DNA of 56,076 nt from a virus. The DNA is taken from positions 1 to 56,076 of IMG/VR virus record IMGVR_UViG_3300034093_001920. One strand, written 5' to 3'. Made by a program: the position numbers and the translations under genes. The notes beneath the pieces are model-generated. The model was not told the origin of the DNA. It saw nothing but the letters and a program-made list of their open reading frames with translations, and made no database searches. Positions within the stretch are counted from its first letter, which is position 1; every line of letters begins with the position of its first letter. This document shows, piece after piece, positions 4,459-48,058 of the stretch.

Positions 4459-4594
4459 GGAAGACCGACTTCGCGAACTTATCGCGGAATGGGCACCAGA
4501 AGCAACTGACTTGGAGCGGGACGCTTTGGTGTTTATGTTTCTGAACAACATTGACGCCGTAAAGAATTACTTTGAGGGGCCTAAGACAGAGTGA
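4451..4594 (+). CDS. 47-residue acidic hypothetical protein
   Basis: A short frame begins with GTG at 4451 after GGAGGGG and ends at a TGA that overlaps the GTG start of the next gene (GTGA). The product MDKEDRLRELIAEWAPEATD... is helical and acidic. Overlap with both neighbours and a strong ribosome-binding site support it as a real gene. Function unknown. Confidence 0.6.
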   Translation: MDKEDRLRELIAEWAPEATDLERDALVFMFLNNIDAVKNYFEGPKTE

Positions 4595-5538
4595 GTATTC
4601 CTGAGGAGATTTTTTCTCTTCCGCTAAGACACTCTGAACTCAAGACCTTTGTAGCCATCTATCGCACTAGCGTGGATGGTGTTTCAGACATCTCTACGGA
4701 AGAACTTAAGAGCCAAACAGGCTACAGCACTGAGACACTCAGGCGGGCTTTTCGCGCGCTCGAATCCCATGGGGTAATTGTGACTGAGCGTACCAAAAAG
4801 AGCTACAGCCACGTCTACAGCAACAGGTACTCGAACAATCGGTACCACGTCAAGTTGTGGTCCTCAGTTGTGGGGTCCTCATCTGATACAGGTAGTAGTA
4901 ACTACAACACAGTAGGGAAAACAGTAGGGAAAGAAGATACTGCGTATCTTCTTATGCCGCAAGCGGCAGAAACGGAGGCTGGTGCAATGGTGGGATGGAA
5001 GAACGAAGACGATGACTCGGTAGGTGGCTTCGGGCTCTTCGAGGAAGAGGTCGAGGAGAAGGTCGCGTCGAAGGTCAAGCCACCGAGCAAACGAGACCCG
5101 CGGACTCGCGGTCGCAGACCTATCGAAGACTGGACCGTGTACGATGTTGCCTCAGAGTTTTCCTTCAGGCTGGGCCGAAAGTTCCCGTACAGTCCTGGGC
5201 TGGTAAACGTCCAAGCCATCAGTGGCGCGCTCCGCCAATGGCGAAACGCACACGGAATCACTCCCACGGTTGAGGTTGAGATTATGAACTCCTTCTTTGC
5301 CGATGACAGGAACTACCTTGGTGCCGACAAGAACCCCGAACAAGTTCACAAGTGGTACTTGAGAATGTTCAAGACTGAAATGGCGGACACCCTGATTAAC
5401 TTCGGCATACACGCCGATGCAGACCCCGATTCGACAAAGCCCGAAGAGTTCGTATATGCTTCAGACGGAAAGCGTTTTGACAACTCAAACTTTGGACGAC
5501 GCGAACGCGACCGTTACGAATCATCTTTGGAGGGGTAA
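4591..5538 (+). CDS. winged-helix replication initiation protein
   Basis: Residues ~10-90 form a winged helix-turn-helix domain (FVAIYRTSVDG, then ISTEELKSQTGYSTETLRRAFRALESHGVI), of the kind found in phage O-type and DnaD-like initiators. A low-complexity acidic and basic linker (~115-165) leads to a C-terminal helical domain (~168-290). It lies directly upstream of, and overlaps, a DnaC-like helicase loader, the same order as lambda O-P. The likely role is to bind the origin and recruit the loader. No origin is identified within the gene. Confidence 0.65.
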   Translation: MSIPEEIFSLPLRHSELKTFVAIYRTSVDGVSDISTEELKSQTGYSTETLRRAFRALESHGVIVTERTKKSYSHVYSNRYSNNRYHVKLWSSVVGSSSDTGSSNYNTVGKTVGKEDTAYLLMPQAAETEAGAMVGWKNEDDDSVGGFGLFEEEVEEKVASKVKPPSKRDPRTRGRRPIEDWTVYDVASEFSFRLGRKFPYSPGLVNVQAISGALRQWRNAHGITPTVEVEIMNSFFADDRNYLGADKNPEQVHKWYLRMFKTEMADTLINFGIHADADPDSTKPEEFVYASDGKRFDNSNFGRRERDRYESSLEG

Positions 5539-11452: not shown

Positions 11453-11926
11453 ATGGTAGGAATGCGCAGCGAAGCCGAAATCCTCAAAGCCTTTGAGGGT
11501 CTCGACACGCGCCCTGGTTCACGACACGCCCGAGTTGCAACGAGTTCTGTTGCAGAGAAGAAGCGTGCTAAAGTTCTGGGAGAAGGAAGTGGTTGGGATG
11601 AAAATCCCATCATCAAATCTGTACGAGGAGTAGAGACCGAATTGTTCACCATCAGTGCTTTGGCACAGGCGTTGGAGAAGGAAGTCGTTACGATTCGGTA
11701 CTGGGAGAAGAAGGGCCATATCCCTGGCGCTCCCTTCAGACTTCGTTCCAAGATAATTAACGGTAACAAGGTCAACGGCAATCGGGTGTATACTCGGGAA
11801 CTGATTGAAATTGCTATCGAAGAATTTCAAGAACGAGGTCTGCTAGGTTCCGCTCGTGTAGACTGGAACCGAAACAGCGACTTGACATCTGCTATTGTTA
11901 GCAAGTGGCAAGAAGCCCTCAAATAA
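11453..11926 (+). CDS. MerR-like helix-turn-helix DNA-binding protein
   Basis: Residues ~63-125 contain a MerR/excisionase-type winged helix (ELFTISALAQALEKEVVTIRYWEKKG then RVYTRELIEIAIEEF). The N-terminal 60 residues are polar and probably flexible. It may bind a specific DNA site to control replication or transcription. The target is unknown; it precedes the ssDNA-binding protein gene, which starts after a 61-nt gap. Confidence 0.7.
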   Translation: MVGMRSEAEILKAFEGLDTRPGSRHARVATSSVAEKKRAKVLGEGSGWDENPIIKSVRGVETELFTISALAQALEKEVVTIRYWEKKGHIPGAPFRLRSKIINGNKVNGNRVYTRELIEIAIEEFQERGLLGSARVDWNRNSDLTSAIVSKWQEALK

Positions 11927-17340: not shown

Positions 17341-17644
17341 AGGACAGAAGCAGTCACAGAAACACGAGAAGCGACTAGCTAAAGAGGTTGGTGGAGCAAC
17401 TACCGCTGCTTCGGGAGCGTTCTGGTCGCGGAAGGGCGATGTACGCAATGGCGACCTCCTCATTGAGCACAAGTGGACTGGGAAGAAAACCAAGACCATT
17501 AGCTCAGCAGAACTCAAGAAAATTACTAACGAAGCGATTATGGACGGTCGCCTTCCTGTATTTGGGATTCATCTTGACGGAGTTGATTACGTTATTCTTC
17601 TTGAGACAGATTTCCTAGAAATGTGGCGAGACCGTGTTTCTTAG
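17330..17644 (+). CDS. PD-(D/E)XK nuclease, Hjc/resolvase-like
   Basis: The core FWSRKGDVRNGDLLIEHK carries the conserved Asp (KGDV) and E-x-K (LIEHK) of PD-(D/E)XK nucleases, with a preceding GATTAASGAF loop typical of phage Hjc-like resolvases. TTG at 17330 is the likely start; an ATG at 17249 would lie deep within the previous gene. At 104 residues it is about the size of a minimal Holliday-junction resolvase. It probably processes branched DNA made by the RecA-like protein. Confidence 0.75.
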   Translation: MKSEGQKQSQKHEKRLAKEVGGATTAASGAFWSRKGDVRNGDLLIEHKWTGKKTKTISSAELKKITNEAIMDGRLPVFGIHLDGVDYVILLETDFLEMWRDRVS

Positions 17645-18020
17645 TGAGCATACCTGGATGGAAAAAGCCGCGTGCAGCGGAGTTAACATCGGAGTCTTTG
17701 GCAAGGGGACAGACCTGTTCTTTCCCCCACGCGACAAAGAACTGTACAAAAAGATTTCAACAGAAGGAAAGAAGTACTGTTTTGGGGACGAGGAAACAGG
17801 TCGACCTCCCTGCCCCGTTAGAAACGAGTGCCTCTGGTTTGCAGTAGAGCTAGATGAGCAACACGGCATCTGGGGCGGTTTGTCACATCGCGAAAGAAAT
17901 GCTAGAGTTAGAAAGTGGCACAGAGACCACCGACATGAGATGACTTTGAAAGAGTACATGCTCAACCTTCAGGAGGGGAAAAATGGTAGTTCAGTCGAAA
18001 GACTTGAAAAACTTTCTTGA
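17634..18020 (+). CDS. WhiB-family iron-sulfur transcription regulator (first copy)
   Basis: The WhiB pattern includes an N-terminal Cys (KAACSG, C14), C49, C60 and C66 (CPVRNEC) and the GIWGG turn (GIWGGLSHRERN), followed by a basic C-terminus. WhiB proteins bind a [4Fe-4S] cluster and regulate transcription with sigma A in actinobacteria. The usual C-x2-C pair is stretched to C49-x10-C60, which is unusual. It overlaps the resolvase gene upstream and the nuclease gene downstream. Confidence 0.85.
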   Translation: MFLSEHTWMEKAACSGVNIGVFGKGTDLFFPPRDKELYKKISTEGKKYCFGDEETGRPPCPVRNECLWFAVELDEQHGIWGGLSHRERNARVRKWHRDHRHEMTLKEYMLNLQEGKNGSSVERLEKLS

Positions 18021-30571: not shown

Positions 30572-31063
30572 ATGCACATACTCGTAGAACTTAACGGCGT
30601 CCTTCGCAATCAAGATGATGCTCCGATTCCTGTCGGACAGATTATGGTTGGAACGCTTAGTGCTTTCCACAAGATTACTATTTTGTCGTTTATGGATGAA
30701 CGCGGAACAAAGCACTGGCTCGACTCCAACAAGATTGTCGACATGGATGACATCATTGACTCATCCGTAGGGCTTACGGACGAACACCTTACGGAGCGAC
30801 AAATCAAACTCGCTCGCAGCCGAGGGGCTGTTGACCTGTTCATTACGGGAGACCCGTCAATGTGGGCTTTTGCTTTTGAGATGGGGATTCCCTCGGTTAT
30901 GATGGGGCAACCGTCTTATCTTCGCCCCGAGTTTCGCCCTGATGCTCCAAAACGCTTGCGGGCATGGAATGACATTGAAGAAGCCATCCGTAAGGAAAAC
31001 ATCAAACGCACTAACGACGCCAGGCTCGTCCGCACAGATGAGGGTTTGAGGTTTGACGGATGA
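30572..31063 (+). CDS. HAD-like superfamily protein, catalytic Asp not evident
   Basis: The start MHILVELNGVLR matches the HAD motif I position, but the usual DxD is replaced by ELNG. Later LARSRGAVDLFITGDPSMWAFAFEMGIPSVMMG resembles the HAD end region where GDPSMWA takes the place of motif IV acids. It may bind a ligand without phosphatase activity. The gene overlaps the TGT-like gene. Confidence 0.6.
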   Translation: MHILVELNGVLRNQDDAPIPVGQIMVGTLSAFHKITILSFMDERGTKHWLDSNKIVDMDDIIDSSVGLTDEHLTERQIKLARSRGAVDLFITGDPSMWAFAFEMGIPSVMMGQPSYLRPEFRPDAPKRLRAWNDIEEAIRKENIKRTNDARLVRTDEGLRFDG

Positions 31064-32547
31064 TTATCTTTGGTGGAGTAGAGATTCCATCCAACAGGAC
31101 GCTACTTGAACGCTCTGGTGTACAGAATGTTATGCTCAACTACTGGGGTTTGCGTAAACGCGGGCTTCCTAAAACAAAAGCGTATCTAATTGGTGAGCAT
31201 TTCCTTACGGACATGAAAGTCTGGGTCGACTCTGGGTCTACACAGGCTGACAAAGCAACCCTATCGCCGCGCGAATTAGCGGAATACGCAGCCGACTATG
31301 AAGAGTTTATTGCGCTCAACTACGACCGCATTGAGGGCTTTACAGAGTTTGACTCCACATCGCTGGGGATGCCTGCCGTTATTCAGAATCGAGCTGTGTA
31401 TGAGAATGACCCGAAGCTGTGGGTAGTATGGAAAGAGTCTTACGGACAGCCTGTCCTACGGATGTGGGCTAACGAGTACTCCAACATCGCTATCCCCCAT
31501 GAAACAATTGAGTCGGTCACTACTCTGGCTGGGGTGACTCGGGGGCTGGCTCAGACTACTGGGGTTCGCTTCCATGCGCTCGCTACGGCTAAGCCTGATA
31601 ATTTACGCCAGATACCGTTTAGCACCACCAGCACGCTCTCATGGCTCTCTCCAATGCGCCGAGGAGAGACGATTATCTGGGACGGCAACAAGATTGTCCG
31701 TTATCCCAAGAAGATGAAGTCGCAAGCCCGCATTAGATACAAGAGCATTGTCGAAAAGGCTGGGCTGAATTACGAATTGTTTGTGTCGGATGACACCCTA
31801 GAAGCAACAAAGGTTGCTATCTGGTCTTACTTACAGTTAGAGAGAACCATGACAGACAACAATGACAACATTACCCCCATCAACAAGAACAAGTTAGTTG
31901 ACAATAGTGATGACACCCTATACACAGGTTTGATGGAAACAGGGTTGGGGTCTTCTGCTAACAGCGGTGTTGAGATGCGGAAAAAAGAACGGGCTGAGGT
32001 AGTCCAAAGAGACCCGCAAGAGGTAGTTGCTATGCCCGTAGTCGGCTACCAGATGAAAACGATTGTTGATTCGGACGGCTCTCACGATGTGCTCAAAGAT
32101 GTGCCTATCGTACAGTCCACGGCTAGTACTTTACGCCAATGTAATACCTGCTTTGTGGCTTCTAATTGCCCTGCTTTCAAAGAAGATAACACCTGTGCTT
32201 TCAGTCTTCCTATCGAGGTAAAGACTCGTGAACAATTACAGGCTTTGAACACGGCTCTCTTAGAGATGCAGGCTCAGAGAGTAATGTTTATGCGGTTTGC
32301 AGAGGAACTGAACGGTGGCTACGCCGACCCCAATGTGTCGCAAGAGATAGACCGATACCAGAAGATGTTGAAGAACATCAAGGAGTTAGACGAGTCCAAA
32401 GAGTTCATCCAGATTACGGCTCAACGCAACGCAAGTCAGGGCGTGCTTTCCGCTATCTTTGGAGACCGAGCAACGGTACTTCGGGAGATGGAACAGCCTT
32501 TGAATGAAGTCGAGACTACTCAAATCATTCGCGATTCCCTGGAATAA
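31060..32547 (+). CDS. TGT/DpdA-like TIM-barrel protein with C-terminal cysteine cluster
   Basis: Residues ~1-250 resemble tRNA-guanine transglycosylases and the phage/island paralogue DpdA: WVDSGSTQ (D57), then FHALATAKPDNLRQIPF and STLSWLSPMRRGE, matching the barrel's DSG and SW..R.G strands. A second half has C361, C364, C370 and C379 (CNTCFVASNCPAF), which could hold iron-sulfur or zinc, and helices. DpdA inserts 7-deazaguanine into DNA. No preQ0 pathway genes are in the window, so that activity here is an inference. Confidence 0.6.
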   Translation: MIIFGGVEIPSNRTLLERSGVQNVMLNYWGLRKRGLPKTKAYLIGEHFLTDMKVWVDSGSTQADKATLSPRELAEYAADYEEFIALNYDRIEGFTEFDSTSLGMPAVIQNRAVYENDPKLWVVWKESYGQPVLRMWANEYSNIAIPHETIESVTTLAGVTRGLAQTTGVRFHALATAKPDNLRQIPFSTTSTLSWLSPMRRGETIIWDGNKIVRYPKKMKSQARIRYKSIVEKAGLNYELFVSDDTLEATKVAIWSYLQLERTMTDNNDNITPINKNKLVDNSDDTLYTGLMETGLGSSANSGVEMRKKERAEVVQRDPQEVVAMPVVGYQMKTIVDSDGSHDVLKDVPIVQSTASTLRQCNTCFVASNCPAFKEDNTCAFSLPIEVKTREQLQALNTALLEMQAQRVMFMRFAEELNGGYADPNVSQEIDRYQKMLKNIKELDESKEFIQITAQRNASQGVLSAIFGDRATVLREMEQPLNEVETTQIIRDSLE

Positions 32548-36052: not shown

Positions 36053-36325
36053 TTACGGACGGGCTATGGATAAGTTCGTCCGTAAGACAGGGATGCTCGC
36101 CGCCGACATTCTCACGCTTGCTTCGAGCATGATACTTGCTACGGATACTCGAAGTACATCAGCAATCGACTCAATAATCTCTTCCGATGTGGATGTGACT
36201 CCGCGCTCGGTGTCGGAGATAGTGGCGATAGAGATGTACCCAAAGTTAGATACATCCGTGAGGGTCAATCCGTGAGACTGTCTAATCTCACGGATGACCT
36301 GTCCTACATAGTCGCGGAACTTCAC
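36053..36325 (-). CDS. XRE/Cro-CI-type HTH regulator
   Basis: The 90-residue protein contains IREIRQSHGLTLTDVSNFGYISIATISDTERGV and IIESIADVLRVSVASIML, the canonical XRE helix-turn-helix arrangement. It could be a repressor of this phage or of host genes. No clear operator is seen next to it, but the promoter array at 46.7-47.1 kb is a candidate target. Confidence 0.75.
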   Translation of the reverse strand: MKFRDYVGQVIREIRQSHGLTLTDVSNFGYISIATISDTERGVTSTSEEIIESIADVLRVSVASIMLEASVRMSAASIPVLRTNLSIARP

Positions 36326-42309: not shown

Positions 42310-44196
42310 TTAGTTTGCGAGGTTGCGGGCTGTCGCGGTTGCGACCAACTCGCGACCGAGAGCGATGATGCCTCGGACTTCGCTGATGTCGGCAACGAAC
42401 TCGAATCCGTGGTCGTTGTCGATGCGGTAGCCTGTGTTGAGATTGACGAGACCTGTAAGGACTCCGCCGAGGCGCAGGTCACTCGCAATCTTGTCGCACT
42501 TATCTTCGCTCTCCCATTGACCGTCCGTAATCGTAAGCATGACCTTGATTGCTCGGGTCGAGTCAGCGAGGATGCCTTGTGCTTTGGAGAGACCAACGAG
42601 AGGTTCAGTACCACCGCTGTGGTGGCTGTGTCGCATCTGACTGGTCGCGCTGTCACCCGAGCCGTAGAGGACTTCCGAGTCCGAGGCAAAGGTGATGACA
42701 GTCGTGCTGGCGTTCACCGTGTCGAGTGCGCGCTTGACCGCCCACATCGCCTCGAACGCCTCACGGCGAACACCGCTCATTGAGCCAGAGACATCCAGCA
42801 GGACAACACACTCGATGTCCACAGCATCCTCACGACCAACCTCGAATCGGTCGAACGCGGTGTCGAAGTCCTTGTCTGCCAGCCAGCGACCAAGGTTGAC
42901 CTTGCCAGACGAGACCTGCCTGTTCCAGCCAGAGTCGTGCTTGGCTTGGAGTTCTTCGAGGACTCGGGCAAAGCCGTTGGATGCTTGTGCCGTCTCGGGA
43001 GTGACCGACTCCATGTCGTAAGTTGCCTTACGGATGTTCTGGTCGACTCCGTTGAGGGGGTTCTCCATGCCGTTGATAGCGTTGGCATCGTTGATGATGT
43101 CTTCCCGAGCCTCGTTCACAACCTTGTCGAGAGCATCGCGGAGAGTGTCGACAATCGACTCGCCAGTTCCAGCACCCTGACCGTCAGAGGGCTGGTCATC
43201 GTCCGAGTCATCGTTCGACTGTGGAGCAGGGTTGCTCGGTGACGGCGACTTGTTTGTGCTGGGCGTGCTGTCGGATGAATCGTCCGTAGGCTGTCCGTTA
43301 GAACCGCCCGACTCTTCATCCCCGTCCGAATCCGAGTCGCTCGGAGCAGGGTTGCTCGGAGCAGGTTCGGGTGGAGCAGGGTTGCTCGGGAACTGTGGCT
43401 CGGGCTGGTTGCTCGGCGCACGCTCGGAATCCTTGGACTGTTCGGACTGGGGTACAGGTCGAACCGACCCCGACTCCTGTGACGAGCCACCCTTACATCC
43501 ACCCTCGGGCGGAGTGAACTGATTGAGCAGGTGGTAGAACTCTTCGAGCAGAGCCTCGCCTCGGTCGTTGTCCTTGGGGAAGACGAGAAGACGGTACTCG
43601 TCAATCACTCGGGCAAGGTCGGGCATGAGTTCGGGTCGAGCGAACTTGTCGGCAACTGCCTGTCGGACATCCAACGGCAGGTACTTGCGACCATGAGTCA
43701 GGATGAACGCTCCCGATACATCGTCCTGTCCGAGAATCAGAGTGAGGACGGTTGGGGTGAGCCAGAGTCGTGCCGACTTGCCCCAGCGACCAGTCGCGAG
43801 AGTCTCGATGCGCTGGTCTTCGAGGATGTTGAGTTCGCGAGTGTAGCCGTTGTCGATTGCGAACTTGGTGATGCCAGCACCCTTGCGAGGCGTGTACAGG
43901 ATGTGGAGCATCTCGTGGACGGACAGACCCTTGTTGGATGCGATGTCCGACAGGCTGTCGAATGAGAGCGACTCGGAGTCGAACCAGATTTGCGTGGGAA
44001 TCGACCAAGCAGGGGCAGGTGCTTTGCCCGAGGCGCGAACATCGTGGAGCGTGACCTTGATTGGAGACCAAGTGTCGAGCGACTGCTTGACCACGGTGTT
44101 GATGAACTTACGGCTGTGTTCGATGAACCGAGCCTTGCGCTCGGCATCGGGGTCGACAGCCGACAATGGGCTGGACTGGAAGTTGGGGGTAGACAT
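42310..44196 (-). CDS. VWA-domain protein with N-terminal HExxH metallopeptidase-like domain
   Basis: The N-terminal domain carries SVHEMLHILYTP (H94, E95, H98) with NILEDQRIE downstream, a zincin-like pattern. A Ser/Pro/Asp-rich linker (~235-345) leads to a C-terminal von Willebrand A domain with the MIDAS motif LLDVSGSMSG (D468, S470, S472). Such VWA proteins work with MoxR AAA+ ATPases, and one is next in the operon at 44292. The pair likely assembles or remodels a protein or metal-containing target. Cobalt chelatase activity is not supported beyond fold. Confidence 0.8.
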   Translation of the reverse strand: MSTPNFQSSPLSAVDPDAERKARFIEHSRKFINTVVKQSLDTWSPIKVTLHDVRASGKAPAPAWSIPTQIWFDSESLSFDSLSDIASNKGLSVHEMLHILYTPRKGAGITKFAIDNGYTRELNILEDQRIETLATGRWGKSARLWLTPTVLTLILGQDDVSGAFILTHGRKYLPLDVRQAVADKFARPELMPDLARVIDEYRLLVFPKDNDRGEALLEEFYHLLNQFTPPEGGCKGGSSQESGSVRPVPQSEQSKDSERAPSNQPEPQFPSNPAPPEPAPSNPAPSDSDSDGDEESGGSNGQPTDDSSDSTPSTNKSPSPSNPAPQSNDDSDDDQPSDGQGAGTGESIVDTLRDALDKVVNEAREDIINDANAINGMENPLNGVDQNIRKATYDMESVTPETAQASNGFARVLEELQAKHDSGWNRQVSSGKVNLGRWLADKDFDTAFDRFEVGREDAVDIECVVLLDVSGSMSGVRREAFEAMWAVKRALDTVNASTTVITFASDSEVLYGSGDSATSQMRHSHHSGGTEPLVGLSKAQGILADSTRAIKVMLTITDGQWESEDKCDKIASDLRLGGVLTGLVNLNTGYRIDNDHGFEFVADISEVRGIIALGRELVATATARNLAN

Positions 44197-44245: not shown

Positions 44246-44304
44246 GACGGCTGACGGACACCCCTATCCGTCAGCCGTCCGTAAGCCTCGGTTAGACCGA
44301 GGCT
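44246..44304. repeat. two adjacent hairpins between MoxR and VWA genes
   Basis: A 13-bp perfect stem (44246-44258 with 44267-44279) is followed by a 9-bp stem (44284-44292 with 44296-44304) that overlaps the MoxR stop. They could lower expression of the VWA gene relative to MoxR. No T-run is present. Confidence 0.55.
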
Positions 44305-45596
44305 GTGAACGCGATGCCCAACTCGCCACAGATGTTCGAGGCGTTGAGGTCGAGCGTGTTGGCGATGCCACCACGGTCTGGAACTTTCATCGAGTTCAGG
44401 AGAGAGTGTCGTGCGAACTCCCAGCCCAACTCCGTGTTGCTCACGAAGTCTTTGAGTACTCGGGTCGAGAAGATAGAACTGAACTCGCCCAACTCGTACT
44501 GGTCGCGGATTGCGAACGCGACATCCAACAGCGACTTGCTGGGGATGAACTTGGACTCGATGTCGCGGTCATAGGTGAACTCGACCTTGATGCCGTAGCG
44601 GTCGAGGAACGCCTCGTCTGGCTGTGCGACTCCCTTGTAGTTCCAGTTGCCGTCAGCGATAATGAGGCACTCGGGGTGAATCTTGATGACCTGCCCCTTG
44701 TCTCGGGTCATGCGAATCTCGCGCTCCATGAGAACAGCGAGGAAGTACGAGTTCGCCTTGGGAGACATACGAGTTGCCTCGTTGATGAGGACAACGGACG
44801 GCTGTTGGATAGCATCCACCAGCGCGCTGTTGCGCCACTCGAAGTGCCCCTCGGCAGTCGGTATGAGTTCGCCCTGAATCTGCCCCTCGTCCATGCTCGG
44901 GTCACAGTTGACCGTTGCGAACGGCACGCCACGGCGCGATGCCTGACGGCGCGCGCTGGTCGACTTGCCAGTTCCAGCGTGACCGCCGACCCAGACATTC
45001 CGTTGCTCACGGAGTGCCTTGTCGAAGAACGCATCCTCGGGTGTGCCAGCCACGACTCGTGGAATGTAGCCAGCGATGTCGGGGTCAGTCGGCAACGGAT
45101 AGAGCAGAGTCGAGTAGGCGTGAACCAACTCGGGCTGTCGGACAGGCTGTACGACAGGCGGTGCGACCTGTACGACAGGCGCGACTGGTTCGACTGGGAC
45201 AGGCGGAGCGACAGCGACAGGTGGAGCGATGTTTGTGCTGGGCGCACCTTGTCCGTTGTACACGGAATCGAAGACAGGCTCGACAGGCGTGCTTGTCATC
45301 GTGGTGTCAGCGCGAACCTTGCGCTCGATGCTTTGGAGCAGGGTGGCTGGTTTCTCGCCAGCCTTGACCTGCTCGATGTTGTTGTCGGTCAGGGTGACGG
45401 TCAGCGGTGTGCCGACCAACATCTCGCCCATGTCGAATGTTGGGATGTCGAAGTTCCACGCGGTGTGGACTCCTTGACCTGCGCCGTTGTGTCGGGTGTA
45501 CACAATCGGGTCTCCGTTCGAGTCGTGAATCACGACTGTCTGTCGGATAGGGCTGTCGTATGAGGTACGACTCTGGATGATGCTTGCGGTGTTCAT
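44292..45596 (-). CDS. MoxR/CobS-like AAA+ ATPase
   Basis: The protein of about 434 residues has a beta-rich N-terminal part, a Pro/Val-rich linker (~115-160) and an AAA+ core with Walker A GGHAGTGKS (204-212). The Walker B is VVLINEATRM, with Asn272 in place of the usual Asp and Glu273 present. MDEGQIQGELIP and DRYGIKVEFTYD are MoxR-like. It precedes the VWA partner gene. ATG 45596 is chosen over a longer in-frame ORF. Confidence 0.85.
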   Translation of the reverse strand: MNTASIIQSRTSYDSPIRQTVVIHDSNGDPIVYTRHNGAGQGVHTAWNFDIPTFDMGEMLVGTPLTVTLTDNNIEQVKAGEKPATLLQSIERKVRADTTMTSTPVEPVFDSVYNGQGAPSTNIAPPVAVAPPVPVEPVAPVVQVAPPVVQPVRQPELVHAYSTLLYPLPTDPDIAGYIPRVVAGTPEDAFFDKALREQRNVWVGGHAGTGKSTSARRQASRRGVPFATVNCDPSMDEGQIQGELIPTAEGHFEWRNSALVDAIQQPSVVLINEATRMSPKANSYFLAVLMEREIRMTRDKGQVIKIHPECLIIADGNWNYKGVAQPDEAFLDRYGIKVEFTYDRDIESKFIPSKSLLDVAFAIRDQYELGEFSSIFSTRVLKDFVSNTELGWEFARHSLLNSMKVPDRGGIANTLDLNASNICGELGIAFTASV

Positions 45597-45630
45597 GTTG
45601 CTCTCCTTGGTTGGGGTTACTTGGTTGGGG

Positions 45631-46267: not shown

Positions 46268-46417
46268 TTAGAGGATTGCGTTGATGTCATCGGACATCGC
46301 TCGGCTGGCGAACTCGTTGAGGTGAGTCTCGCAGAGCGAATCGTGGAACTGGACGATGAAGACATCGCCAGAGCAGGTGTTGGGCTGACGGTCGGCGTGA
46401 ACGCAGGTCGGGGTCAT
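46268..46417 (-). CDS. 49-residue Cys-containing protein
   Basis: MTPTCVHADRQPNTCSGDVFIVQFHDSLCETHLNEF... has three Cys and nearby His, a possible zinc site. Its start overlaps the stop of 46414. Confidence 0.5.
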   Translation of the reverse strand: MTPTCVHADRQPNTCSGDVFIVQFHDSLCETHLNEFASRAMSDDINAIL

Positions 46418-46704
46418 GCTTGCGCCTCGACCGTCTGGCGTGCCTTGGCAATCGCATCGAAGATGATGCGCTTGCGCGCTCCCTTGGGCATCGACTGGTA
46501 GAAGTCGAAGTCGACTGTTTCGAGAGACTCGGCAATTCGGTTCACCAGTCCGTAAGCGGTGAAGAGGACTTCTTCCTCGTCCTTGGTGAAGTGCCAGTAA
46601 TCGCCACCGACTACGGCAGACGGCGAGAGTTCGAGGTGCGTGGAGAAGAGGTACGCGATGATGCGTGCGTACTCTTCGCGACTTGGGGTCAGGTCAATCA
46701 TCAT
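46414..46704 (-). CDS. first gene of the minus-strand cluster, 96-residue hypothetical protein
   Basis: MMIDLTPSREEYARIIAYLFSTHLE... is helical and mildly charged. AAGGAG precedes the ATG. It is nearest to the promoter array, about 61 nt from the closest predicted -10 box. No family recognised. Confidence 0.55.
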   Translation of the reverse strand: MMIDLTPSREEYARIIAYLFSTHLELSPSAVVGGDYWHFTKDEEEVLFTAYGLVNRIAESLETVDFDFYQSMPKGARKRIIFDAIAKARQTVEAQA

Positions 46705-47015
46705 GGGTCGGTCTCCTTGGGGTAGAGGAATGGGGAGCGCACGATGCGCCCCCCAACAGATACAACAATACGCCTACGCCCCAACCACGATGACGATAGG
46801 TCGAAACTAATTCGAGGAGTTTCAGACCGACCAATCGAGGCGAGGCGAGACGAGAATCGGGGAGCGCGTATTGTCGCGCCCCCCAACAAAGACAACTTTA
46901 CGCCTACGCCCCAAGCAGGATGACGATAGGTCGAAATTGCCCAAGAAATAATGTTTACCTGAAATCGCCCCTATCGTCATCGTAGATGGGGTCGTATGGT
47001 AGGGCGGGGGTTCGA

Positions 47016-47031
47016 GGGGGCGGCAGCCCCC
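47016..47031. repeat. GC hairpin at one predicted minus-strand transcript start
   Basis: GGGGGC (47016-47021), loop GGCA, then GCCCCC (47026-47031) overlaps the position where a transcript from the 47038 -10 box would begin. It may shape or stall that transcript. Confidence 0.4.
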
Positions 47032-47062
47032 TTATACCACAACACCCCAACTAGGATGACGA

Positions 47063-47099
47063 TAGAGAGAAAGAGAATAAGAGAGAGAGGGAGAGAATA
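47063..47099 (+). repeat. purine-only GA-rich tract
   Basis: The plus strand holds an almost uninterrupted run of A and G (AGAGAGAAAGAGAATAAGAG and onward), with two or three breaks. It lies between two copies of the promoter element. Such tracts bend DNA or can form triplex structures. Confidence 0.5.
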
Positions 47100-47135
47100 G
47101 TACACCCCGACCCCAACTAGGATGACGATAGCCCC

Positions 47136-47526
47136 AAACTGTTACCTGATAGTAACATTCGACCTGTACCGTAGACCTGGGGTCACCAGCGACCGTCTGA
47201 GCCGATTTAGCCACAGTAGCCATAATTAGTCACCTCGACCGCGTTAGCCCGTCAGACAGGCGCGTACGGTCTTACGGACGGTCTGTCCGACAGCCCCCAC
47301 CCGTTACCGCAACCCGCGAGATGGCCCCCCAGGTCAGACGCCCAGGTAACGATGGTCATCCTAGGCAGTAGCCAAGGTGGCCCGTGTAAGCCATTGAGCG
47401 CCCCTGCAGCAAGGCCAAGGTGTCAGTTGGCGTAGAGAGAGTGTATACCCCCGCCAAGGACGCCAGAGGAGGGCTGAGGGCCTTTTAGAGGGTTATCCTA
47501 AGGTCGCCCCTGCTATCCTGAAGACA
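47136..47526. other. noncoding gap before the rightward small genes
   Basis: About 390 nt without a convincing gene. It contains a TTACGGACGG and TGTCCGACAG pair at 47.27-47.29 kb and a partial, degenerate copy of the control box near 47351. No tRNA or strong terminator was found. Confidence 0.5.
47514..47526 (+). promoter_or_regulatory. -10 element for the 47527 gene
   Basis: TATCCT (47514-47519) with a TGC just before it (extended -10) lies 7 nt upstream of ATG 47527. No ribosome-binding site is present. A leaderless start is likely. Confidence 0.4.
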
Positions 47527-47685
47527 TGACAACGAGCAAGCGCCAGTTCGCGGAGACCATTACGCAGAGGGAGCTCAATCGGCTACCCTACATGGCTGGC
47601 TATACTACTCACCTGTCCTTCTATCAGCCTAACATGCCCCCTGCTATCCCTGCGGTACCCATGGGAGTTCCCATCAAAGACGTGA
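47527..47685 (+). CDS. 52-residue hypothetical protein
   Basis: MTTSKRQFAETITQRELNRLPYMAGYTTHLSFYQ... begins at a predicted leaderless start. It is short and ends WEFPSKT. No family. Confidence 0.45.
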
Positions 47686-47734
47686 AGTAAAGCGGGCCAC
47701 CATAGTCGGGGCGTTTTTAGGTAAGCCTGTGCTC

Positions 47735-47767
47735 TACTCTCTCTCTATGGCATACTTAATTATCTGA
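47735..47767 (+). promoter_or_regulatory. promoter plus six-codon leader ORF
   Basis: TACTCT (47735-47740) sits 6 nt before ATG 47747, which opens the short frame MAYLII and stops at 47767. A ribosome-binding site then drives 47783. The mini-ORF could be translated from a leaderless mRNA. Confidence 0.4.
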
Positions 47768-47782
47768 ACTTAAGGAGCCACA

Positions 47783-48058
47783 ATGGCTAAGAAAGAACCA
47801 ATGCGCCTCGCGCAGGATTTCAAAGACAACCTCAAGGCTGGCACTGGCATTGGTGCCGTGATGGTCGGGGGCTCCATGGCTAACTCTGTTACAGGAGCAG
47901 TTGTTGGCGGCCTGGCTGGTGCTGTACTCGGTGCAGGCATGGGCGTTGCCAAGACGGTCATCGATGCACACAAGGCCCGTAAGGCTCAGGACCGTGCCGA
48001 CCTCGTTCGTTCCATTGCACGACACCCTGCTCTCGGGCGTCAGTTCCCTCAAGACTAA
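47783..48058 (+). CDS. small glycine-zipper membrane protein
   Basis: The 91-residue protein contains GTGIGAVMVGGSMANSVTGAVVGGLAGAVLGAGMG, a Gly/Ala-rich hydrophobic stretch typical of glycine-zipper transmembrane helices, flanked by basic ends. TAAGGAG precedes the ATG. It could alter the host membrane. Confidence 0.65.
   Translation: MAKKEPMRLAQDFKDNLKAGTGIGAVMVGGSMANSVTGAVVGGLAGAVLGAGMGVAKTVIDAHKARKAQDRADLVRSIARHPALGRQFPQD

Follow-up and report, generated by a model that had tools for sequence, protein, structure and literature searches.

A divergent intergenic region in what is probably the partial genome of an uncultured phage carries five copies of an asymmetric 31-bp element. With a probability of roughly 45%, these copies form a lineage-specific and recently amplified array to which one DNA-binding regulator made by the phage attaches within the control region of the leftward genes. 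This reading is drawn from three properties of the box that heads the element, namely its confinement to one region, its selection, and its turnover among related phages. The array adds one more case to a familiar class of viral switches and does not establish a new class of promoter.

The DNA analysed here (the window) comprises positions 1 to 56,076 of the IMG/VR virus record IMGVR_UViG_3300034093_001920. It is taken as a fragment because related records reach 95 kb. Its gene content includes DnaB/DnaG/DNA polymerase/UvsX-like genes, a WhiB regulator, a CobS-like AAA ATPase and a VWA protein, together with helicase-loader genes and an O/DnaD-like initiator (4591-5538). Judged by DNA polymerase, Streptomyces phages (36-37% identity) are the nearest sequenced isolates, and this affinity and the WhiB gene suggest an actinobacterial host; a freshwater setting is a guess. 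Polymerases 63-100% identical to that of the window were found in 52 IMG/VR loci. A megablast search of 40-56 kb of the window against phages returned no match. Of the single-protein queries, that with the DNA polymerase recovered close relatives, and those with the AAA ATPase and the 48320 protein did not. Relatives of the AAA ATPase are also present in Brevibacterium phage Cantare and in Gordonia phages. Additionally, the window encodes a queuine tRNA-ribosyltransferase-like protein (31060-32547, plus strand), possibly a DNA-modification enzyme. A literature search found nothing on the timing of gene expression in this phage group, whose members found are metagenomic records.

Structure of the element

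The intergenic region between the leftward and rightward genes spans 1,078 bp (1.08 kb) with a G+C content of 0.56. The box TATCGTCATC[GC]T occurs there in five zero-mismatch copies and nowhere else in the 56 kb. The first-pass annotation had described a fixed geometry, and this proved exact: in five of five copies the box is followed by exactly 16 nt and TA, with TGGGG at spacer positions 4-8. The hexamers that it listed (TATTGT, TAAAGT, TAGGGC, TATAAG and TACTAT for copies 1 to 5) and the orientation of the copies, four leftward and one rightward, were likewise confirmed. The box as annotated is exact but too short, as the invariant part begins one base earlier with a C and runs on to GTA. 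The conserved unit is thus CTATCGTCATC-N-T-NNN-TGGGG-N7-GTA, a three-part asymmetric site of 31 bp (Table 1). When the copies and their flanks were aligned over 95 positions, 20 invariant positions formed this one unit and only two isolated invariant columns lay besides. The box, TGGGG and GTA sit roughly one helical turn apart.

Five copies are present as claimed, and their independence was overstated, for copies 1 and 2 lie within a 61-nt direct duplication (90% identical). Copies 3 and 4 face each other and form an inverted repeat with 31-nt arms around the third hairpin. The end of copy 1 lies about 65 nt upstream of the first ATG of the leftward cluster. Spacings of 130, 136 and 66, with one copy inverted, make the arrangement irregular and mixed in orientation, and the preference for the leftward cluster is weak at n = 5. 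A sixth, degenerate box at 47351 on the plus strand (GATGGTCATCCT) was rejected, as it is without TGGGG and GTA and falls within the three-mismatch background. A role of the box as an RNA element was also set aside; the folds, judged by eye, were inconsistent between copies.

Table 1. Positions in the window of the element copies, neighbouring landmarks and genes discussed in the text
Feature	Position	Strand	Remarks
Element copy 1	46769..46799	-	CTATCGTCATCGTGGTTGGGGCGTAGGCGTA; box 46787-46798; nearest the leftward cluster
Element copy 2	46899..46929	-	CTATCGTCATCCTGCTTGGGGCGTAGGCGTA; box 46917-46928; tandem duplicate of copy 1
Element copy 3	46971..47001	+	CTATCGTCATCGTAGATGGGGTCGTATGGTA; box 46972-46983; sole right-facing copy; lies within a hairpin loop, short in most relatives
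Element copy 4	47035..47065	-	CTATCGTCATCCTAGTTGGGGTGTTGTGGTA; box 47053-47064; inverted partner of copy 3
Element copy 5	47101..47131	-	CTATCGTCATCCTAGTTGGGGTCGGGGTGTA; box 47119-47130
Hairpin GGGGGGCGC-ATCGT-GCGCTCCCC	46732..46754	-	14 nt after copy 1 GTA; fold -24.3 kcal/mol
Hairpin GGGGGGCGCG-ACAATA-CGCGCTCCCC	46859..46884	-	14 nt after copy 2 GTA; fold -24.5 kcal/mol
Hairpin GGGGGC-GGCA-GCCCCC	47016..47031	.	Between copies 3 and 4; 14 nt after copy 3 GTA; fold -17.0 kcal/mol
Two-hairpin leader element TAAGGGGGC..GCCCCC..GAACCCCC..GGGGCGATTTCAGG	46955..47033	-	Enlarged here by copy 3
Purine/pyrimidine (GA/CT) tract	47066..47100	.	Between copies 4 and 5; also beside the hairpin in G031 and G011
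Palindrome TGTTAC-CTGATA-GTAACA	47140..47157	.	Just upstream of copy 5; block corresponds to TGATACCTGACAGCAACT in G031
First ORF of leftward cluster	46414..46704	-	96 aa; without family match; first likely target
CobS-like AAA ATPase	44292-45599	-	Near the head of the leftward cluster; adjoins VWA protein
VWA protein	42310-44196	-	Beside CobS-like AAA ATPase
XRE/HTH_3 regulator	36053..36325	-	90 aa; leftward cluster; candidate; homologues in 4 of 15 relatives
WhiB-family regulator	17634..18020	+	Candidate

Selection on the element

The element is real and under selection, and its TGGGG and GTA parts belong to it. Among 2,000 first-order simulations of the 1,078-bp region, the highest count of any 11-mer reached five in 1, probably through low-complexity sequence. 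Pairs of copies agree at 20-29 of the 31 positions of the element, as against 3-10 in the 19 nt upstream and 7-22 in the 40 nt downstream; this conservation between copies amid diverged flanks indicates that selection acts on the 31 bp. Owing to the duplication shared by copies 1 and 2, the invariant columns at positions 11-40 were also counted in reduced copy sets, where 9-11 were seen for 0.5-3.8 expected (P <=0.00055 in every set). With only three lineages retained, the conserved flanking columns numbered 10, compared with 3.5 expected (P 0.00055). The earlier statement that the fixed geometry is non-random is supported.

Promoter-like features and hairpins

The first-pass annotation had presented the copies as promoter elements with TA-starting -10 hexamers and no standard -35. 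The fixed geometry stands and no standard -35 was found at the copies. As a demonstrated unit the promoter element does not stand, since the likeness to a -10 past GTA is no better than chance. The hexamers share only TA and the preceding G, and TANNNT, the usual actinobacterial -10, is seen in three of five (copies 1, 2 and 5). A search of 46600-47900 for sigma-70 promoters (TTGACA-like -35 and TATAAT-like -10, 16-18 nt apart) gave 0 sites, with 0.8 in shuffled sequence. The right-facing copy 3 is badly placed for a promoter: it has the poorest hexamer (TAGGGC), reads into copy 4 and is separated from the first rightward ORF by about 550 nt. The suggestion of a phage regulator is a sound inference. 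That of an altered sigma specificity found no backing, as the sigma families PF04545 and PF08281 gave nothing above cut-off in the window, which is a fragment, or in ten relatives. A search with PF00940 for a single-subunit T7-like RNA polymerase matched neither the window nor any control genome.

Reading of the sequence places a GC-rich hairpin exactly 14 nt after GTA at copies 1, 2 and 3, which amounts to two independent cases given that copies 1 and 2 are duplicates. If TA begins a -10, the hairpin would start at about +4 of the transcript. At copy 1, a leftward transcript would carry it at its 5' end, with AAGGAG and the ATG at 46704 coming next. Hairpins that stabilise 5' ends are well known. 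The hairpins 14 nt from GTA, together with AAGGAG and ATG, favour a promoter near copies 1 and 2, short of proof, and a promoter or 5'-end reading fits the fixed hairpin distance better than a pure operator does.

The third hairpin is the first of a two-hairpin element common to relatives (GGGGGC..GCCCCC then GA(A/C)CCCCC..GGGGCGTTCTAAGG), which runs from 47033 to 46955 on the minus strand of the window. It also occurs at L080:9779(-) and 10373(-), L081:10761(+), L118:4565(+), L137:5126(+) and L073:3877(-). In L081 its 3' end runs into the probable Shine-Dalgarno sequence of the gene that follows, and for this reason the leader may control termination or translation. An Rfam search of the window returned no match.

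Comparison with related phages

To locate the matching control region, the comparison started from five records with a near-full-length AAA ATPase (35-41% identical over the alignment), one of which (G001) ends before it. The control region is homologous and colinear, with local alignment scores of 129 against G031 (maximum of 97 in 200 shuffles) and 97 against G011 (shuffle maximum 83). Common landmarks are the GA/CT (pyrimidine) tract, the GC hairpin, a GACCCCC...GGGGCG block, a GTTACCTGATAG-like block and CAGTAGCC; furthermore, CTGTTACCTGATAGTAAC of the window corresponds to CTGATACCTGACAGCAAC in G031.

The boxes themselves are absent from the homologous surroundings in G031 and G011; for the relatives compared, this is the outcome that the first-pass annotation had named as refuting its reading. 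With up to three mismatches allowed, the element was absent from 34 records apart from scattered chance-level matches, and the best score of a weight-matrix scan of relatives was 13.7 bits compared with 41-47 for the copies of the window. As the relatives are distant (AAA ATPase 35-42% identical), this absence fits a fast-diverging pair of regulator and site no less than it refutes a class of conserved promoters. At the position of copy 4, G031 has CTATCCACCACCCTTGGCCTTGGGATG and G011 has CTATGTGCATCTA, a weak residual similarity beside a low-complexity tract that is suggestive only of a residual single site. Where the window has copy 3, the hairpin of most relatives closes on a short loop of about 5-16 nt, and in the window this loop holds the whole 31-bp element, which fills it exactly between CCCCCGCCC and GGGCG.

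Other repeats were seen in divergent regions of two further relatives. G024 carries several TGTRTAAC direct pairs at 11-bp pitch in a divergent region (L081:8571-9085), and G025 carries several RTAAC-type direct pairs at exactly 11-bp pitch (L137:3900-4372). In both, the number of 12-mer sites was above anything seen in 40 simulations (6 in G024, at most 4 simulated; 4 in G025, at most 3 simulated). The G024 region gave no significant alignment with the control region of the window, and that of G025 is equated with it by divergent layout only. Tandem pairs at 11-bp pitch resemble sites of OmpR/PhoB-type regulators.

Matches to the element elsewhere were rejected as chance. Of fourteen single exact-element matches in viral contigs, not one had the leading C as well as GTA in place; a relaxed form gave two identical matches inside an 810-codon frame, another relaxed form gave none, and one match in a Chloroflexota MAG lay inside an open frame.

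Two further motifs recur in the group. A promoter-like motif of relatives consists of TAAAACGCCCC followed by TGTCA/TGGCA, with TATAT about 20 nt after CGCCCC. It heads rightward genes in G031. GGGGCGTTTT was seen 12 times for 1.6 expected, and sites of the motif include L079:7415(+), 8402(+), 8886(+) and 9317(+), L081:8076(-) and L080:13066(-); related upstream halves lie at 46971(+) and 47707(-) in the window. CAGTAGCC recurs in control regions of the group, often about 20 nt after GGTTGA, with 60 occurrences for 26 expected in all sequences examined, the loci being partly redundant. It is found at 47214 and 47366 in the window, L080:11749, L081:8592(-) and 9697(-), L082:11682(-) and 11877(-), L137:3999(-), and L079:7117 and 7396.

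Candidate regulators and proposed mechanism

Among the scanned proteins the only regulators found are the XRE and WhiB proteins, plus a weak MerR-like match at 11453 that is a candidate binder, as is the initiator at 4591. The first-pass annotation had spoken of two WhiB proteins; one gene exists, and a second was not found among the genes scanned. XRE proteins usually bind palindromes. The element is non-palindromic, a mild argument against the XRE protein as its binder, and the palindrome TGTTAC-N6-GTAACA beside copy 5 would suit that protein better.

In the proposed mechanism, the sites would overlap promoters of the leftward cluster, and the regulator may read the three-part site along one face of the DNA, an arrangement made possible by the near-helical spacing of its blocks. 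If the TA after the spacer begins an actinobacterial-type -10, each site would span a leftward promoter from about -41 to -11, and the bound protein would set transcription of the leftward operon. We infer binding, promoters and sign of regulation alike. Repression or autoregulation is slightly favoured over MotA-like activation, as the sites are confined to the control region and changed between relatives that kept the DNA around them. A tyrosine integrase is present in 3 of 11 records, so the group likely has temperate members, for which an array of repressor sites would be plausible. In the 56-kb fragment neither an integrase (PF00589) nor a certain immunity gene was seen, which counts against the regulator array, and the relatives lie too far apart for joint change of regulator and site to be visible.

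Alternative explanations

The regulator array has to be weighed against promoters that depend on an activator or a phage-modified polymerase, in which the box replaces the -35, GTAnnnT serves as the -10 and the transcript starts just before the 5' hairpin. The constant distances from box to TA and from GTA to the hairpins keep an activator alive, as do the missing canonical -35, the AAGGAG and ATG after copy 1 and the leftward aim of four copies. This explanation is nevertheless somewhat unlikely, considering that TANNNT is found at three copies only, that the right-facing copy confronts copy 4, that no copies stand upstream of other genes in the 56 kb as they would in a MotA-type regulon, that the boxes are not conserved in relatives, and that no sigma family rose above cut-off. 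An origin of replication, with boxes as iterons for the initiator and hairpins as part of the origin, appears improbable. Repeated asymmetric sites and hairpins do share a divergent noncoding region in a phage with initiator and helicase-loader genes, and the initiator gene itself is without direct repeats; against this, the copies are irregularly spaced and of mixed orientation, the region is G+C-rich and no GC-skew reversal occurs near 47 kb.

Slightly less probable still is a short repeat that spreads as an insertable 31-bp module, helped by local tandem duplication, without a regulatory role of its own. The loop-filling insertion of copy 3 and the duplication of copies 1 and 2 would suit such a repeat, but selective conservation of box, TGGGG and GTA amid diverged positions, along with the orientation bias, would not. 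Arm-type integrase sites of an attP are very improbable: short asymmetric repeats in both orientations and the integrases of three relatives are in their favour, whereas PF00589 has no match in the window, in G031 about 12 kb separate the integrase (about 64.0-64.7 kb) from the homologous control region (about 76.6-77.4 kb), and fixed TGGGG and GTA parts are atypical of attP arm sites. As a long shot, the element could be the unit recognised by an undescribed phage regulator, with three blocks contacted across three helical turns and a coupling to promoters whose transcripts open with a stabilising hairpin; the unit would spread within a control region as an insertable module and so change regulatory specificity rapidly between related phages.

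Relation to known systems

The array provides a precise 31-bp bait for finding the regulator of the group. Moreover, relatives keep the same control region with different repeat arrays, so the turnover of regulatory specificity can be followed.

L5-type cluster A mycobacteriophages have more than 20 operator/stoperator sites of 13 bp spread over the genome (PMC9283540). In L5 and TipsytheTRex these are asymmetric, phage-specific and biased in orientation with transcription, and their repressor is a monomer with two DNA-binding domains that reads one DNA face (PMC9283540). The present array is likewise asymmetric, multi-copy, phage-specific and orientation biased. Unlike stoperators, it consists of five three-part sites of 31 bp, all within 46769-47131 of the 56-kb fragment. 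The stoperator system has a cognate repressor with an HTH and a Stoperator domain; the candidates here are the XRE and WhiB proteins of the scanned set and the weak MerR-like match. The T4 MotA box replaces the -35 at a fixed distance from the -10 (PMC2988021); its centre lies at -30, and 12 +/- 1 bp separate it from a stringent -10 of the TATAAT type in nearly 60 promoters (PMC2988021). Both systems have a phage-specific box at a fixed distance from a TA hexamer, yet in the present array 16 nt lie between the box and a poorly conserved hexamer, in one region only, with a good -10 in at most three of five copies. The G024 and G025 arrays are also multi-copy short repeats in divergent regions of phages with related DNA polymerases, but they differ in sequence and are therefore not homologous as sites. 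The iterons of theta-type origins are similar as repeated asymmetric sites near hairpins; they are regularly spaced in the same orientation, in contrast to the irregular, mixed copies without a skew signal described here. As the array lacks defining features of stoperators and of MotA boxes alike, it is filed under neither, though systems of this kind are familiar.
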